Shown in pieces: positions 2,551 through 25,295 of a DNA stretch of 25,439 bases. Positions within the stretch are counted from its first letter, which is position 1. Every line of letters starts with the position of its first letter. The translations under genes and the position numbers were made by a program. A model generated the notes under the pieces. That model saw nothing but the letters and a program-made list of their open reading frames with translations. It had not been told where the DNA came from and made no database searches. The stretch comes from a virus: positions 1-25,439 of IMG/VR virus record IMGVR_UViG_3300030109_001033; one strand, written 5' to 3'.

Positions 2551-3435
2551 CTAACCGCCATAGTAACTAAAACTAGGTGTTATCTGCAAAGAAGCCCGAT
2601 CTCTGTCTTCTTCCCTAGCTCTATTAAATTCTTCTTCGTAAATAGCTTTTAGTATTTCAATTCTTTGCGGCGCACGTTTTATAGCTAAGTAATAAGCCAA
2701 ACCTGCGGCTAAACAAGGATAAAAACGAAAAGGTATCTGTAAAGTGTTGGTGTAATCGTCTGCGTCGTCCATACGAACTAAACGGTCAAATTTAACAATA
2801 TCTGTATTGTTTTCTGGAACAGGCCAAAGTTTTAAAGTTGGACTTATTTGGCGATCTAAAAAAAACTGAGAAGGTCTTCCAGTTTGCGATTTAGTAGGTA
2901 TGTTTAAATACTCACTTCGGCTTAAACGAGTTAAAGCATAGTCTGTTCCGTCTCGAGTAATTACCACGGATAAAACATCAATTGTTTTTTGCACCGGAGT
3001 TAAATCAACTGCAGCAGATAACGTAGTTGTAGCGGCACTTGTGCCGCCTGTTAAAGTTTCGCCATTGCTAAAAGTTCCAGAAGGAATTGTAATAGCCATA
3101 GAAGTAGACGAAGGTAAACTTGTTATTGAAGCAGTTGCTGCGCTAGTACCGCCGGTTATAGTTTCACCTACAGTAAAACTACCGCTTGCGCCAACTGTCA
3201 TGGTTAAATTACCGCCTGGATAATTACCTATATCCGAAGCTAAAGTAATTGAAGTTTGGTCTATAGTCCATTGATTTAAACCACGATTCGCCCAATCTGC
3301 TAAAAGCAGGTTCAAAGAACGTCTTGCTGTTTTTAAATCGTAACCCGTGCGTACTTCCAAACCACAACGCTCAAAAGCTTCTTCTACGTAGCTTGCTACG
3401 TCTAGTTCAAAGTTTACTGATGATGAAGTAGCCAT
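2551..3435 (-). CDS. Head-tail connector / tail accessory factor (P22 gp4-like) with inserted repeat domain
   Basis: The 294-residue protein begins with helices containing ARRSLNLLLADWANRG, a hallmark I associate with P22 gp4-type DNA-stabilisation and connector proteins. The usual continuation (VLSVVITRDGTDYALTRLSRSEY, residues about 154-176, then GRPSQFFLDRQ and LKLWPVPE at 187-208) follows only after an extra segment at about residues 72-147. That segment contains two copies of a FxxGETxTGGTSAAT motif (near 87-101 and 122-136) and looks like a small beta domain inserted in a loop. The C terminus is helical and charged. The role is to join the portal ring to the tail and keep packaged DNA inside; this is inferred from family resemblance and position. 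Confidence 0.7.
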   Translation of the reverse strand: MATSSSVNFELDVASYVEEAFERCGLEVRTGYDLKTARRSLNLLLADWANRGLNQWTIDQTSITLASDIGNYPGGNLTMTVGASGSFTVGETITGGTSAATASITSLPSSTSMAITIPSGTFSNGETLTGGTSAATTTLSAAVDLTPVQKTIDVLSVVITRDGTDYALTRLSRSEYLNIPTKSQTGRPSQFFLDRQISPTLKLWPVPENNTDIVKFDRLVRMDDADDYTNTLQIPFRFYPCLAAGLAYYLAIKRAPQRIEILKAIYEEEFNRAREEDRDRASLQITPSFSYYGG

Positions 3436-14158: not shown

Positions 14159-14932
14159 TTATTCATCCTCTTTATAACTCCACATATTTAATTCTACACC
14201 TTGTATTATTAAAGCGTAAACCGCCGCTTCAATTGCAGACTTAACAGCATAACTCACAGTCTCATTTTCTGTTAAACCACTTTCAAGCTCTACAAGTTCA
14301 GTCCCACTTTCATAAAATTTAAATACATCTGAACCTGCTCCAGCAGAAAAAATTGTCTTGCTTGTACTTACATTCAACAATATTTCACCGGTTTGCACAA
14401 GCACGGCCCTTAAAGACACAGTAAGTCTATCCCTTCGGTATCTGTTATTAATTGAAATTCCTAACGTTCTTGCGCCAATTCCACCTGTCATATAATTGCT
14501 GTCATAAGAAATAATCCCACCTTCTAAAATAAGTCCAGCATACAACAAAGGCATTAATTTGTTAGAACCCTCTCCGTCATAACTTTCTCTAGTGTTTATT
14601 ATTAACTGCCGCTCCCTTGTTAAATTAGCCAAGCCTATTCGTTCTATCACAGTAAACCAACTGCCTTTGCCAGCGTTCATTAAAGCTTCCATTAAATACA
14701 GGTCAGCGCCCTGGGTAACTGCTGTTGAAAACAAAGCCATGTTGTCTGCGTTTTTTCTTTGTCCGGTAAAATCAGAAAATTTGTATACAGTAACAACGGC
14801 TTTTCTCTTTGGTTTTTTTAAATCAATTAAAGCCTGTAAGGAGGGTCTTTCTATTATTGGTCCTTCTTTTTTACCAAGCACCCCCACAGGTGCGCACCCA
14901 TATAAAAAGAATAATAATATTAAGGCACGCAT
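14159..14932 (-). CDS. csgG: CsgG, curli secretion pore lipoprotein
   Basis: This 257-residue protein is a clear CsgG homologue, the outer-membrane nonameric channel that exports curlins. The lipobox LYGC gives lipidated Cys13. Conserved blocks line up with E. coli CsgG as I remember it: VVTVYKFSDFTGQRK (47-60), FSTAVTQ (68-74), VIERIGLANLTRERQLI (95-111), GGIISYDSNYMTGGIGAR (138-155, first membrane hairpin) and TGEILLNVSTSKTIF (181-195, second hairpin). In the eyelet loop Phe68 (E. coli Phe56) is kept, but the preceding Asn is Leu and the Tyr is not conserved, and the loop seems one residue longer. The constriction may therefore differ. It overlaps csgF by 13 bases; the first curlin follows directly. 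Confidence 0.95.
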   Translation of the reverse strand: MRALILLFFLYGCAPVGVLGKKEGPIIERPSLQALIDLKKPKRKAVVTVYKFSDFTGQRKNADNMALFSTAVTQGADLYLMEALMNAGKGSWFTVIERIGLANLTRERQLIINTRESYDGEGSNKLMPLLYAGLILEGGIISYDSNYMTGGIGARTLGISINNRYRRDRLTVSLRAVLVQTGEILLNVSTSKTIFSAGAGSDVFKFYESGTELVELESGLTENETVSYAVKSAIEAAVYALIIQGVELNMWSYKEDE

Positions 14933-21848: not shown

Positions 21849-23312
21849 TTAACCATAATACGCATTAACTTTCAAGCGTTCAGACGCATCTGTAATATCC
21901 CAATCATCAGACGGCGTTTGCACAAAATTACCTTGACGATACCGCATAAGTGCTTGTGTCATGCTATCCACCAAGTCGTCGTGTCTGCCATTGGGAAAAG
22001 CAGCACATTCTTCTATCATTTCTTCCGCCCACGGTTCGTCGGGGGCCCAAACCATTCCAGCTTCAAACAAAGGTGAAATGGAATGTACTCTGGAAAGTTT
22101 ATCGTTACCCTTACTTGGCGTAAAATTGACCACGGGTATACCCATTTGTCGCAATTCGTGCGTCAATGGCATACCGGACGCCTTTGCCTCAATAATTACC
22201 GTCTCAGGTTCCCAAAAACCGTACAGTTCTTTAGCAACGGCTTTTAACTCAGGAAAATCCCACCGTCCTTTCTTGACATCTAACAAGATAATGGCTGGTG
22301 AACCGCCTATTTCTTGTGGATAAAACACGCCCCAGGTGCTAATTGCACTAAAATCAGCCGTTTCTTTCTTAGAAAACGCCGTATCGTAGCTTTGAATAAC
22401 AAATTGTAGGTTAGGAACCTCTGGTTTTTCCCATTTTAACCACCATTCGCGTTTTAATATGGATAATTCTTCTGCAGTTGGATCTTGCTGGTACTGTGCG
22501 TTCCATTTATAGGGCGGAACGGACGCTTTTACGCTCAATAATTCGTCTTTTGACCAAAACTCCGGCCAACAAGGGTTTCCGGACGGCATCAAAGCGGGTA
22601 ATTCTACAATATCCCACTGATCTGCTCTTTCATCTTTAGCCTGCGCACGTATAAGTTGGCCTGTCATGTCTTTTTCTGACCAACGAGTTTGCACCAAAAC
22701 GATTGCGCCGCCCGGTTGGAGCCTTTGTCGGGGTCCCCCAGTGTACCAATCCCATGCTTGTTCAAAACCACTGTTAGATAACGCCGTTTGCTCCGAGTGC
22801 GGGTCGTCAATAATAATTAAATCACCACCACGACCGGCTAAGTTTGAACCTACACCCACCGCATAATACATACCACCGCTTTTTGTGTCCCAACGACCAG
22901 ACGCTTTACTGTCTGCAGCAAGTTCCGTTTTTGGAAAAACGTTGGAATAGTCTTCTGTTTCAATTAAATTTTTTACTTTACGGCCAAAGTTAACAGCAAG
23001 TTCCGTGGTGTGTGTTGCCTGAATAATTTTCATAGCAGGATTCCTACCGATCATCCATGCTGGAAACAAAAAGCTGGCAAACTCACTTTTTGTGTGTCGA
23101 GGTGGCATATTGATAATCAAACGTTTAATTTCACCTTTTGCTATTTGTTCTAATTTTTCTGCAACTATTCTGTGGTGATTTCCAGAAATAAACTCAGGCC
23201 ACATTGCTTTTACAAAATGTAAAAAATTATTTTGACAGTCCTCTACTTTTTGTAATTGAGCAAGCCGTAGCTTTAAACGTAATAATTTTGTTTCGTCTTC
23301 AAGGAGGTTCAT
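21849..23312 (-). CDS. terL: Terminase large subunit (ATPase-nuclease)
   Basis: This 487-residue motor packages DNA through the portal and cuts it. The ATPase domain has a Walker A variant MPPRHTKSE (69-77; Thr replaces the second Gly of PPRHGKS), Walker B DLIIIDD (164-170) with adjacent PHSE, and a coupling motif VLVQTRWSEKD (205-215). The nuclease domain shows the RNase-H-like acidic set: SYDTAF (Asp310), IIEAKASG (Glu375) and HDDLVDS (Asp445/446). Length is normal. The ATG overlaps the stop of the nuclease gene by four bases (ATGA). It lies in a classic terS-terL-portal order. Confidence 0.95.
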   Translation of the reverse strand: MNLLEDETKLLRLKLRLAQLQKVEDCQNNFLHFVKAMWPEFISGNHHRIVAEKLEQIAKGEIKRLIINMPPRHTKSEFASFLFPAWMIGRNPAMKIIQATHTTELAVNFGRKVKNLIETEDYSNVFPKTELAADSKASGRWDTKSGGMYYAVGVGSNLAGRGGDLIIIDDPHSEQTALSNSGFEQAWDWYTGGPRQRLQPGGAIVLVQTRWSEKDMTGQLIRAQAKDERADQWDIVELPALMPSGNPCWPEFWSKDELLSVKASVPPYKWNAQYQQDPTAEELSILKREWWLKWEKPEVPNLQFVIQSYDTAFSKKETADFSAISTWGVFYPQEIGGSPAIILLDVKKGRWDFPELKAVAKELYGFWEPETVIIEAKASGMPLTHELRQMGIPVVNFTPSKGNDKLSRVHSISPLFEAGMVWAPDEPWAEEMIEECAAFPNGRHDDLVDSMTQALMRYRQGNFVQTPSDDWDITDASERLKVNAYYG

Positions 23313-23758
23313 GGCGAAATTGTATTAAAAACAGATTCCCAGTCTATAAAAGGTCCTTTGAACTCAGCGGTTTTTTGGGACCCTTTTATTCCGTCCATGA
23401 CTAAATTGACAGCTTCTTCCCCTTTATAAAGAATTATACGAAAATCTTTTTCATTTATTTTTTGGTGTTTGACCAAAACCCAAACGCTTGCGTGTTGATG
23501 TCTAGTCAAAAAAGATACTTGATGGGGACGTAAACCAACCTTATTGCCGTTACAAAATTTTAATTCTACTAAATGAAGTTTGCCTTTTTCATCACAAAGC
23601 ATGACGTCCGGAACACCGGGCAAGGCCCACGATTCTAATCTAGTGGGTAATATTTTCGGACGAGTTCTTTTCAACGCTTCCCGAACTTGTTTCCAGAGTC
23701 CGGATTCTTTCGGAACCGCTGTCCTCGGTATCTGTTTGTTCTTCATTGGGCGGGGCAT
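23309..23758 (-). CDS. PD-(D/E)XK nuclease (VRR-NUC-like) beside terminase
   Basis: This 149-residue protein contains WALPGVPDVMLC (Pro50-Asp51) and LHLVELKFC (Glu65-Leu66-Lys67), together the PD...ExK catalytic core. RPHQVSFLTR follows, like the Gln-containing helix of VRR-NUC enzymes. The family cleaves branched or double-stranded DNA. A separate nuclease beside terminase could trim branched replication products before packaging or attack host DNA. It overlaps terL by four bases and the small terminase gene by about 119 bases in another frame. M5 (23746) is an alternative start, but both leave long overlap; later starts would lose the catalytic Asp. The role in packaging is inferred. Confidence 0.8.
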   Translation of the reverse strand: MPRPMKNKQIPRTAVPKESGLWKQVREALKRTRPKILPTRLESWALPGVPDVMLCDEKGKLHLVELKFCNGNKVGLRPHQVSFLTRHQHASVWVLVKHQKINEKDFRIILYKGEEAVNLVMDGIKGSQKTAEFKGPFIDWESVFNTISP

Positions 23759-24224
23759 AACCTTTTATTTCCTGTATTGCTTTTAAAACTTCTTCTTTTG
23801 ACATTTGATCTATACTGCCGTGACGGATCTCGCTTTTACTTATATAAATGTCTCCCTGTGCTTGTCCTCTGCGATACTCTGCTTGCACGGCTGCCGAGTA
23901 AGCACCGTTCTGCAAAGCTTCGTCTCTTATTCTTTGTAACTCGCGAACGTGTCTTCCGTACGTCACACCATATTTTGCGTCTAATTCTCTGCGATACTCT
24001 TTTATTGCAGCAACAACATGGGGACTTCTATCAGGATTTGTTAGTTCGTATGCTCGAGTATGAGCGGAACTTGCAGAGTAACCCGCGTTTATCGCAGCCT
24101 CTCTCAGGGTAATGTGACCATCATTGGCAACTATTTCACGAACGAATAGTTCTTGTTTACGTGTCAATCTAGTTTTTGCAGACAACCCAGGTCGTCCGTT
24201 CTTTTTAACTTTTTTATTGCTCAT
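23640..24224 (-). CDS. terS: Terminase small subunit
   Basis: This 194-residue protein begins with a basic segment (KKNGRPGLSAKTRLTRKQEL) that includes a GRP AT-hook-like core. A helix-turn-helix follows (HITLREAAINAGYSASSAH, TRAYEL), which would recognise the pac or cos site. A helical oligomerisation region (HVRELQRIRDEALQNGAYSA onward) and a polar tail end the protein. It recruits the large subunit to phage DNA. The ATG at 24224 lacks a Shine-Dalgarno, and a candidate promoter sits so close that the message may be nearly leaderless. The last 40 residues (Ser/Glu/Thr-rich) are dual-coding with the nuclease gene. Confidence 0.85.
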   Translation of the reverse strand: MSNKKVKKNGRPGLSAKTRLTRKQELFVREIVANDGHITLREAAINAGYSASSAHTRAYELTNPDRSPHVVAAIKEYRRELDAKYGVTYGRHVRELQRIRDEALQNGAYSAAVQAEYRRGQAQGDIYISKSEIRHGSIDQMSKEEVLKAIQEIKGYAPPNEEQTDTEDSGSERIRTLETSSGSVEKNSSENITH

Positions 24225-24233
24225 TTGAAAAAA

Positions 24234-24262
24234 ATTCTAAAATTTTTTTTCGCATAAAACAA
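24234..24262 (-). promoter_or_regulatory. Candidate late promoter before the terminase genes
   Basis: On the minus strand TTGTTT (24257-24262) is followed after exactly 17 bases by TAGAAT (24234-24239), a five-of-six match to a bacterial -10 box. The -35 match is weak. Transcription would start near 24227, almost at the terS ATG, so the transcript may be leaderless. A direct repeat further upstream could bind an activator. Confidence 0.35.
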
Positions 24263-24280
24263 GCTTTGGGACTCTAAAAA

Positions 24281-24298
24281 TAACGTCAGTTAACGTCA
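24281..24298. promoter_or_regulatory. Tandem TAACGTCA/TGACGTTA operator-like repeat
   Basis: TAACGTCA occurs at 24281-24288 and again at 24291-24298, with a 10-base period (one helical turn). It lies about 20 bases upstream of the -35 box of the terminase promoter candidate, an activator-like position. The repeat is seen; binding is inferred. Confidence 0.4.
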
Positions 24299-24532
24299 TA
24301 TCGTTTTTCACTGAAATGTTTGCGTAAAACTGAGTTATAACCGTCGCAGCCAGAGACACCTACCGCGGTCTGTAAGTCGTTGATTTATAAGGATTTAATC
24401 ACGGATCGTAAACAATGCTTTCAGGGGTCCCTAAACGTGTTGCAAATGAGTTGACAGTTGACCGCGCTTCGAGGGTCGCGGATCGCGGACCACGCATCTG
24501 GCCACTTTTTCCGCGATTGGATCTAAAATTCC

Positions 24533-24549
24533 GACGGGATCGGGTCCGA
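24533..24549 (+). repeat. 17-bp direct repeat, copy 1
   Basis: GACGGGATCGGGTCCGA is identical to a second copy at 25088-25104, 555 bases away. Both contain the GGATCGG motif that recurs across the region. Confidence 0.8.
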
Positions 24550-24619
24550 TCGGATCGGATCGGTAGCTTTTGAGCATGGATCGAGGGGCACGGATCGGCA
24601 AGTTTAACTGATAAACATA

Positions 24620-24648
24620 TTACCCACAGCTTGCGCGATTGTGGATAA
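24620..24648. promoter_or_regulatory. Pair of inverted DnaA-box-like sites
   Basis: TTACCCACA (24620-24628, one mismatch from TTATCCACA) faces TGTGGATAA (24640-24648, exact complement of TTATCCACA) across 11 bases. An outer inverted pair TTTAAC/GTTAAA (24603-24608 and 24655-24660) frames them. It resembles paired DnaA sites of origins. Confidence 0.55.
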
Positions 24649-24777
24649 CTAGCGGTTAAAAAATGATCAATTTGCGGTTATGTAACACTCGATAGCGGAC
24701 CGCATGAAAAAAACGGCTAAGATAAGCGATTCTTTTTCCTGGTAAGTGCTGCTGCAATCGACCCACCAGGGCAAAAG

Positions 24778-24830
24778 TTATTCACAGCGGCAAACTCCCG
24801 GACCAAAAAGTTATACACCAGTTATGCATA
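24778..24830 (+). promoter_or_regulatory. Row of DnaA-box-like sites
   Basis: TTATTCACA (24778-24786) fits the TTATNCACA consensus exactly. TTATACACC (24811-24819) and TTATGCATA (24822-24830) are degenerate copies in the same orientation, 33 and 11 bases apart, i.e. on one face of the helix. Confidence 0.5.
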
Positions 24831-24831
24831 T

Positions 24832-24900
24832 ATCGAGGGGCTATCGAACCCGAGGGGCTATCGAGGGGCTATCGAGGGGCTATCGAGGGGCTATCGAGCT
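24832..24900 (+). repeat. 11-bp tandem repeat (ATCGAGGGGCT)
   Basis: Four perfect 11-bp units lie at 24832-24842, 24860-24870, 24871-24881 and 24882-24892. An expanded unit with a 6-base insertion (24843-24859) and a final partial unit (24893-24900) complete the array. It directly follows the DnaA-box-like row. Iteron-like binding of a replication protein is possible. Confidence 0.85.
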
Positions 24901-25087
24901 CGGATCGGAAGTGCGGCAAGAATTCAGAAACGGCAAAAACGGGCTAGAACCCGCGCGGAGAGTGACTTCAAACGATTTTGGCAACACTCGAACCTTAACC
25001 AATGCAAAGAATGGGCCTATTATTCGAGGGTTTGAGCTCAGATCGGGAGTCAAAAAAGAATTTGTTTACAATAATTTGATATACATT

Positions 25088-25104
25088 GACGGGATCGGGT
25101 CCGA
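25088..25104 (+). repeat. 17-bp direct repeat, copy 2
   Basis: GACGGGATCGGGTCCGA, identical to 24533-24549. It is preceded by TTGACG-like sequence (25086-25091), which may be a weak -35 box. Confidence 0.8.
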
Positions 25105-25270
25105 ATTTAACATACAGATCGGGGAGCTTGCCCGGATCGGCTCACCTATCGAGGAAGGATCGAGAGCATATCGAGGGCAAAAGGTCCATTTTCAGGAATA
25201 GCACGGTAAGGGGTGGACCATTTAAACGCCTCAGATCGCAAATGCGGGAGCCCTTTATTCGATAATCCAT

Positions 25271-25295
25271 AAAAAAACCCGCCTTTTGGCGGGTT
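25271..25295 (-). terminator. Rho-independent terminator of the right-hand transcription unit
   Basis: On the minus strand AACCCGCC - AAAA - GGCGGGTT forms a GC-rich stem followed by a run of seven T. It lies about 33 bases after the stop codon of the partial gene at 25328-25439. It insulates the origin-like region from upstream transcription. Confidence 0.88.

Follow-up and report, generated by a model that had tools for sequence, protein, structure and literature searches.

Constrained DnaA boxes and a recurrent IHF-type element upstream of the terminase genes of a metagenomic phage: a candidate replication origin

The window, that is, the whole stretch of 25,439 nucleotides analysed here, is a 25.4-kb linear virus fragment of metagenomic origin (IMG/VR record IMGVR_UViG_3300030109_001033). 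Nearly all of its genes lie on the minus strand, among them terS, an overlapping endonuclease-like ORF, terL and the genes for an SU10-type portal and a capsid protein. The ORF that overlaps terS (23309-23758, minus strand) resembles phage helicase/endonuclease families and shares about 119 bp with it, and proteins of the CsgG family (PF03783, E 2.4e-47; 14159-14932) and with a FecR domain (PF04773; 12368-13471) are encoded on the same strand amid the phage structural genes. The TerL of the window is 56-65% identical to those of phage 023Pt_psg01, Pelagibacter phages HTVC027P and HTVC023P and phage DSL-LC04, and no similarity of the window to known phages was found at the DNA level. Relatives with an annotation carry genes for a primase, a helicase and PolA, the last of these in complete relatives, and the window fragment stops short of any replication genes. 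Contigs from metagenome-assembled genomes that carry a related TerL belong to mixed taxa and gave no usable host assignment.

Directly upstream of terS lies a noncoding kilobase (24225-25270, about 1.05 kb), from which the terminase/structural operon reads away. Its only long ORF (24746-25201, 151 aa) is not conserved among relatives, so that the whole interval counts as noncoding, bearing out the initial annotation's description of about 1 kb without genes; searches of Rfam and for tRNAs returned no match. The best conserved part of the region is the approximately 200 bp next to terS. The features to which the following paragraphs refer are:

23640-24224, minus strand: terS, small terminase subunit (phrog_51, E 1.2e-12; Pfam Terminase_2 above cut-off)
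24225-24398, no strand assigned: conserved leader adjoining terS; identity with the L009-L019 sub-lineage about 71-74% across some 200 bp (blastn and alignment)
24372-24391, plus strand: 20-mer GTAAGTCGTTGATTTATAAG, shared by 69 virus contigs, just left of the region (24404-25234) that was initially called origin-like
24373-24385, minus strand: perfect match to the IHF consensus WATCARNNNNTTR, present as AATCAACGACTTA on the reverse strand of the 20-mer, predicted from the sequence match
24481-24598, plus strand: GATC cluster of oriented GGATCG / ATCGAGG words with 8 GATC
24620-24628, plus strand: DnaA box TTACCCACA with one mismatch, TTATCCACA in L002 (motif scan, alignment of relatives)
24640-24648, minus strand: exact DnaA box TTATCCACA, inverted relative to the box at 24620 and invariant across the five closest sequences
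24778-24786, plus strand: DnaA box TTATTCACA, TTATCCACA in L005 and L006
24811-24819, plus strand: degenerate DnaA box TTATACACC, 33 bp past the box at 24778, with spacing kept and spacer diverged
24822-24830, plus strand: degenerate box TTATGCATA, 11 bp past the box at 24811
24851-24898, plus strand: 11-bp tandem array CGAGGGGCTAT, 4.4 perfect copies, without GATC
25041-25237, plus strand: second group of repeats, GATCGGG / ATCGAGG words
25276-25295, plus strand: terminator-like hairpin seen in the sequence, closing the noncoding region on the right; the next gene ends to the right of the hairpin

The DnaA boxes were assessed in 12 upstream regions, comprising related TerL loci and the window itself. 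TTATCCACA occurs 22 times and in all 12 regions, ranking first among 1680 permutations of the same letters, the runner-up of which reaches 6 copies. The boxes can be aligned across the five closest sequences, and a comparison of the window type with the L005/L006 type finds 91-96% identity in the box columns and 53-57% in the remaining columns of 24605-24840, with the 33-bp spacing of the third and fourth boxes preserved although the spacer itself has changed. The DnaA-box part of the earlier reading withstands these strong comparative tests: the exact complement, the exact site and the degenerate partners that it had described are found at 24640-24648 (minus), 24778-24786 (plus) and 24620-24628 (plus), and the proposed spacing in multiples of 11 applies to the boxes at 24778, 24811 and 24822 (33 and 11 bp). 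Box cluster in excess of chance and constraint on both boxes and spacing, each of which would be looked for in an origin, are thus present together, and the alignments show that five predicted DnaA-type boxes are held under constraint. In the L009-L019 sub-lineage the boxes are shifted in position and still present, and the more distant L066 and G021 (L077) carry exact box pairs in noncoding DNA upstream of terL. Many other relatives have no DnaA-box pair in the region upstream of terL, and in the isolated relatives HTVC027P, DSL-LC04 and 023Pt_psg01 the stretches read contain neither the 20-bp element, hereafter the core, nor a box cluster. L066 also displays an iteron-like arrangement 610-540 bp upstream of terL, where AAAAAGTGAGGCTGCCTAATTTC is repeated three times in tandem next to two exact DnaA boxes. 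A second exact TTATCCACA of the window lies within terL (22315-22323, minus strand), in a position shared by most of the clade, and is probably a coding coincidence.

The GATC enrichment is equally real, and its behaviour across relatives is different. Between 24404 and 25234 there are 17 GATC starts, 16 of them wholly inside, where 2.9 are expected at the window-wide rate and 5.0 +/- 2.1 from the region's own dinucleotides (2000 simulations, maximum 13), so the initial count of 17 against about three holds as 16-17 against 3-5, as does that of eight sites within 24481-24596. The words that contain these sites run in one direction (GGATCG 11 forward and 0 reverse, ATCGAG 9 and 1), and the number of sites per upstream region varies from 2 to 17 among relatives that all keep DnaA boxes, with 2 copies in L012 and 7-10 in L015-L019. 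Elsewhere the repeat word itself has been swapped, for GCGCACCG in L032 and L033, GGGTCGCGGTCC in L081 and GGGTTCCGGGCTCTGG in G021. Regular 12-16-bp GATC arrays (GATCAGTTCCGG, GATCGAGTAGCTCCGG) were also seen in L022 and L024, in noncoding DNA between about 400 and 290 bp upstream of terL, and L022 has in addition CTCGAGGAG tandem repeats in its noncoding DNA upstream of terL.

The initial annotation had suggested methylation-sensitive replication, and in its full form the model would have the cluster time the origin through a methylation switch of Dam/SeqA type. The excess of sites speaks for such a switch, and so does a Dam homologue in the more distant G021 (40235-40588, minus strand; PF05869, E 4.4e-35), the same genome that carries two exact boxes upstream of terL. 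The search for a phage methylase that the annotation had proposed covered, nearer to hand, the window itself, HTVC027P and the incomplete relative G002 (42 kb), and found neither Dam (PF05869) nor a D12-class enzyme there. With boxes conserved and GATC density not, and with the sites confined to one-directional words, we regard this model as highly improbable. The idea that the GATC are conserved Dam sites was rejected because of the word orientation and the turnover between relatives; the cluster looks like a by-product of short oriented repeats rather than a set of independent sites or a methylation switch, and nothing in the data requires a role for methylation.

GC skew, the absence of an inflection in which had been named as grounds for refuting an origin, shows none at the region: the cumulative curves of the window, G002 and G021 are essentially monotone, because nearly all genes lie on one strand. 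The distance between core and skew extremum was compared across genomes of other phages in a test that was stated ahead of its enlargement from 10 to 26 genomes. The core is nearer to the extremum than random positions are (p 8e-6 in all 26 genomes, p 0.02 in the 16 new ones) and shows no significant advantage over other intergenic gaps (p 0.18 and 0.56, respectively). GC skew was dropped as proof of an origin, since the strong result of the first ten genomes became modest on enlargement and non-significant against intergenic gaps, and the test appears to add little beyond the core being intergenic. AT-rich peaks lie at 24225-24300 and 25015-25115, and no clear AT-rich unwinding element is found directly beside the boxes.

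The core lies within the conserved leader, and it also precedes terL in L032 and L033 of the same phage group, in imperfect form in L040 and reversed in L081. Its exact 20-mer GTAAGTCGTTGATTTATAAG occurs in 69 virus contigs, against 0 for the reversed control, and 40 of the 69 fall outside the window clade, most with unrelated flanks and a few resembling each other. The core is mostly intergenic and in many contigs has short repeats peculiar to each phage on either side, among them GAACAAT, GTCTGAC and ATTCCAA. Context statistics were drawn from 99 usable instances with the spacers GTCG, GTCA, GTTG or GTTA and compared with random positions in the same DNA. The surroundings of the core are 49% noncoding, against 14% at random positions; a 7-mer repeated at least 5 times is found near 21% of cores and 2.4% of random positions, and a DnaA box within 400 bp of 14% and 1.9%, the corresponding values at mostly noncoding control positions, which partly include core regions themselves, being 11% and 7%. 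Boxes near the core are 11-12 bp apart in L193 and L218 and 22 bp apart in L213, all unrelated contigs. Taken together, these comparisons show a recurrent, predicted IHF-type element that is common to many unrelated phages.

Several simpler or different explanations of the core were considered. That it is only a loose IHF match was set aside, the spacer being non-random (GTCA in 19 of 79 sampled), although chance may account for many of the hits to the degenerate pattern. A role as attP was rejected, as an integrase (PF00589) is encoded in only 1 of the 40 unrelated core contigs. In Curvibacter phage PCA1 (L301), two inverted cores flank a tRNA-Cys beside an integrase at about 3001-3100, which is an attachment-site context. 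In two other contigs (G065 and G069, belonging to L365 and L358) there are 7 and 12 copies of TAAGTYRTTGATTT, often in close inverted pairs, compared with a single copy elsewhere, and this may reflect promoter or terminator use; given so many paired copies in some genomes, several uses of the motif are conceivable. Among isolated phages, core or variant stands beside terminase genes in long intergenic gaps of 13VT501A and R8W.

DnaA and IHF are known as regulators of transcription, and the boxes and the IHF-type site might accordingly regulate a promoter of terS and the late genes, linking the packaging genes to the replication state. The position of the region directly before terS, with the terminase/structural operon reading away, and the conservation of the 200 bp adjoining terS would suit such a switch. 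We nevertheless consider it unlikely, as no sigma-70-like promoter better than chance was found on the terS strand, the boxes are 400-600 bp away from terS, which is far for simple promoter control, and the orientation of the core relative to terL differs between phages.

The same neighbourhood could be a cos or pac packaging region, in which TerS would bind the repeat array and IHF would bend the DNA as at lambda cosB, the GATC words recalling P1 pac. Oriented repeats and an IHF-type site directly upstream of terS are what this predicts, and in Wifcevirus Mansfield core-like matches fall within the predicted terminal repeat. The terL gene is also found within about 6 kb of the core in 18 of the 40 unrelated contigs, a weak figure since most contigs are short, and it is found there in both orientations, so that the orientation of the core relative to terL is not fixed. 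Conserved and phased DnaA boxes would be left unexplained, and the repeats change completely between relatives whose TerL are 75-80% identical; a packaging role thus seems quite unlikely to us.

A third alternative is that the region titrates DnaA or controls DNA entry: it would bind the DnaA of the host and have no origin activity. A role of this kind has been proposed for the T5 injection stop signal, which is described as containing repeats, inverted repeats and DnaA boxes (PMC13250531). In the T5-like Vibrio phage VCPH, two inverted boxes lie about 100 bp from a core variant, with core and pair near A1 and A2-A3. The window phage, however, gives no sign of two-step DNA entry and the T5 function is itself poorly understood, which makes this reading very unlikely in our judgement.

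We put at roughly even chances the reading that the region is a replication origin of DnaA/IHF type, or the regulatory core of one, recognised by the DnaA of the host. From the motifs we infer binding of IHF and DnaA here, and an origin function would follow if host DnaA bound cooperatively to the inverted boxes at 24620 and 24640 and to the phased ones at 24778, 24811 and 24822 while IHF bent the DNA at 24372-24391. The resulting complex would open the DNA nearby, after which the primase, UvrD-like helicase and PolA of the phage, present in complete relatives, would take over. The GATC-rich words would form a lineage-specific repeat array, possibly serving as iterons for a phage protein, and methylation control would be unnecessary. 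In favour of an origin we count the rank and constraint of the boxes, the box pairs of L066 and G021, the PolA of relatives, the recurrence of the core with its enrichment in noncoding DNA, repeats and boxes, the near absence of integrase genes from core contigs, the box spacings in L193, L213 and L218 and the inverted pair of VCPH; an IHF-type element nearby that is common to many unrelated phages fits an origin. Core or variant also adjoins primase genes, in long intergenic gaps, in Redjac, FtMidnight and vB_VnaS-L3. Counted against it are the lack of a skew inflection and of an adjacent AT-rich element, the lack of core and box cluster in the stretches read of isolated relatives, the location of replication genes off the fragment, and the occurrence of the core elsewhere near terminases or in multi-copy pairs, by which it is not tied to replication genes.

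A wider proposal sees in GTAAGTYRTTGATTTATAAGG an origin element common to many unrelated tailed phages, each of which would surround the IHF-type core with an iteron word of its own and some of which would add phased DnaA boxes. A search by motif in the literature library used retrieved no paper describing GTAAGTYRTTGATTTATAAGG as a shared element. We hold this proposal to be possible though doubtful; if true, the replication origins of phages with no other relationship would share a single short marker motif. For most environmental phages the origin is unmapped. Should the origin reading of the window be right, a marine phage group would depend on host DnaA although its relatives encode primase, helicase and PolA, and a 20-bp intergenic motif could help to locate candidate origins in many phage genomes. 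A GATC cluster beside DnaA boxes, moreover, need not imply methylation control.

Among known systems, the T5 injection stop signal resembles the region in being noncoding and in its repeats and DnaA boxes (PMC13250531), but it lies at the genome end by A1/A2, whereas the window region sits beside terminase genes. The HTVC023P-type phages (HTVC027P, 023Pt_psg01, DSL-LC04) are the relatives by TerL and as a group possess primase, helicase and PolA, yet differ by the absence of core and box cluster from the stretches read. Lambda cosB and P1 pac are packaging sites upstream of terS with an IHF-type site and repeats, and P1 pac contains GATC clusters. The window region matches them in its place upstream of terS, its IHF-type site, its repeats and, for P1 pac, its GATC clusters, while conserved phased DnaA boxes belong to the window region and not to those sites. 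The P1 plasmid origin oriR consists of DnaA boxes, GATC repeats and RepA iterons; no RepA-like initiator has been identified for the window and its GATC words vary between close relatives, whereas both place DnaA boxes next to longer repeats and to short ones rich in GATC. Bacterial oriC of the E. coli type differs in that the window region lacks a clear duplex-unwinding element next to its boxes, a change of skew and conserved GATC, and belongs to a phage that probably encodes a primase, a helicase and a polymerase itself; what the two have in common are TTATCCACA boxes, some of them in helical phase, accompanied by an IHF-type site.
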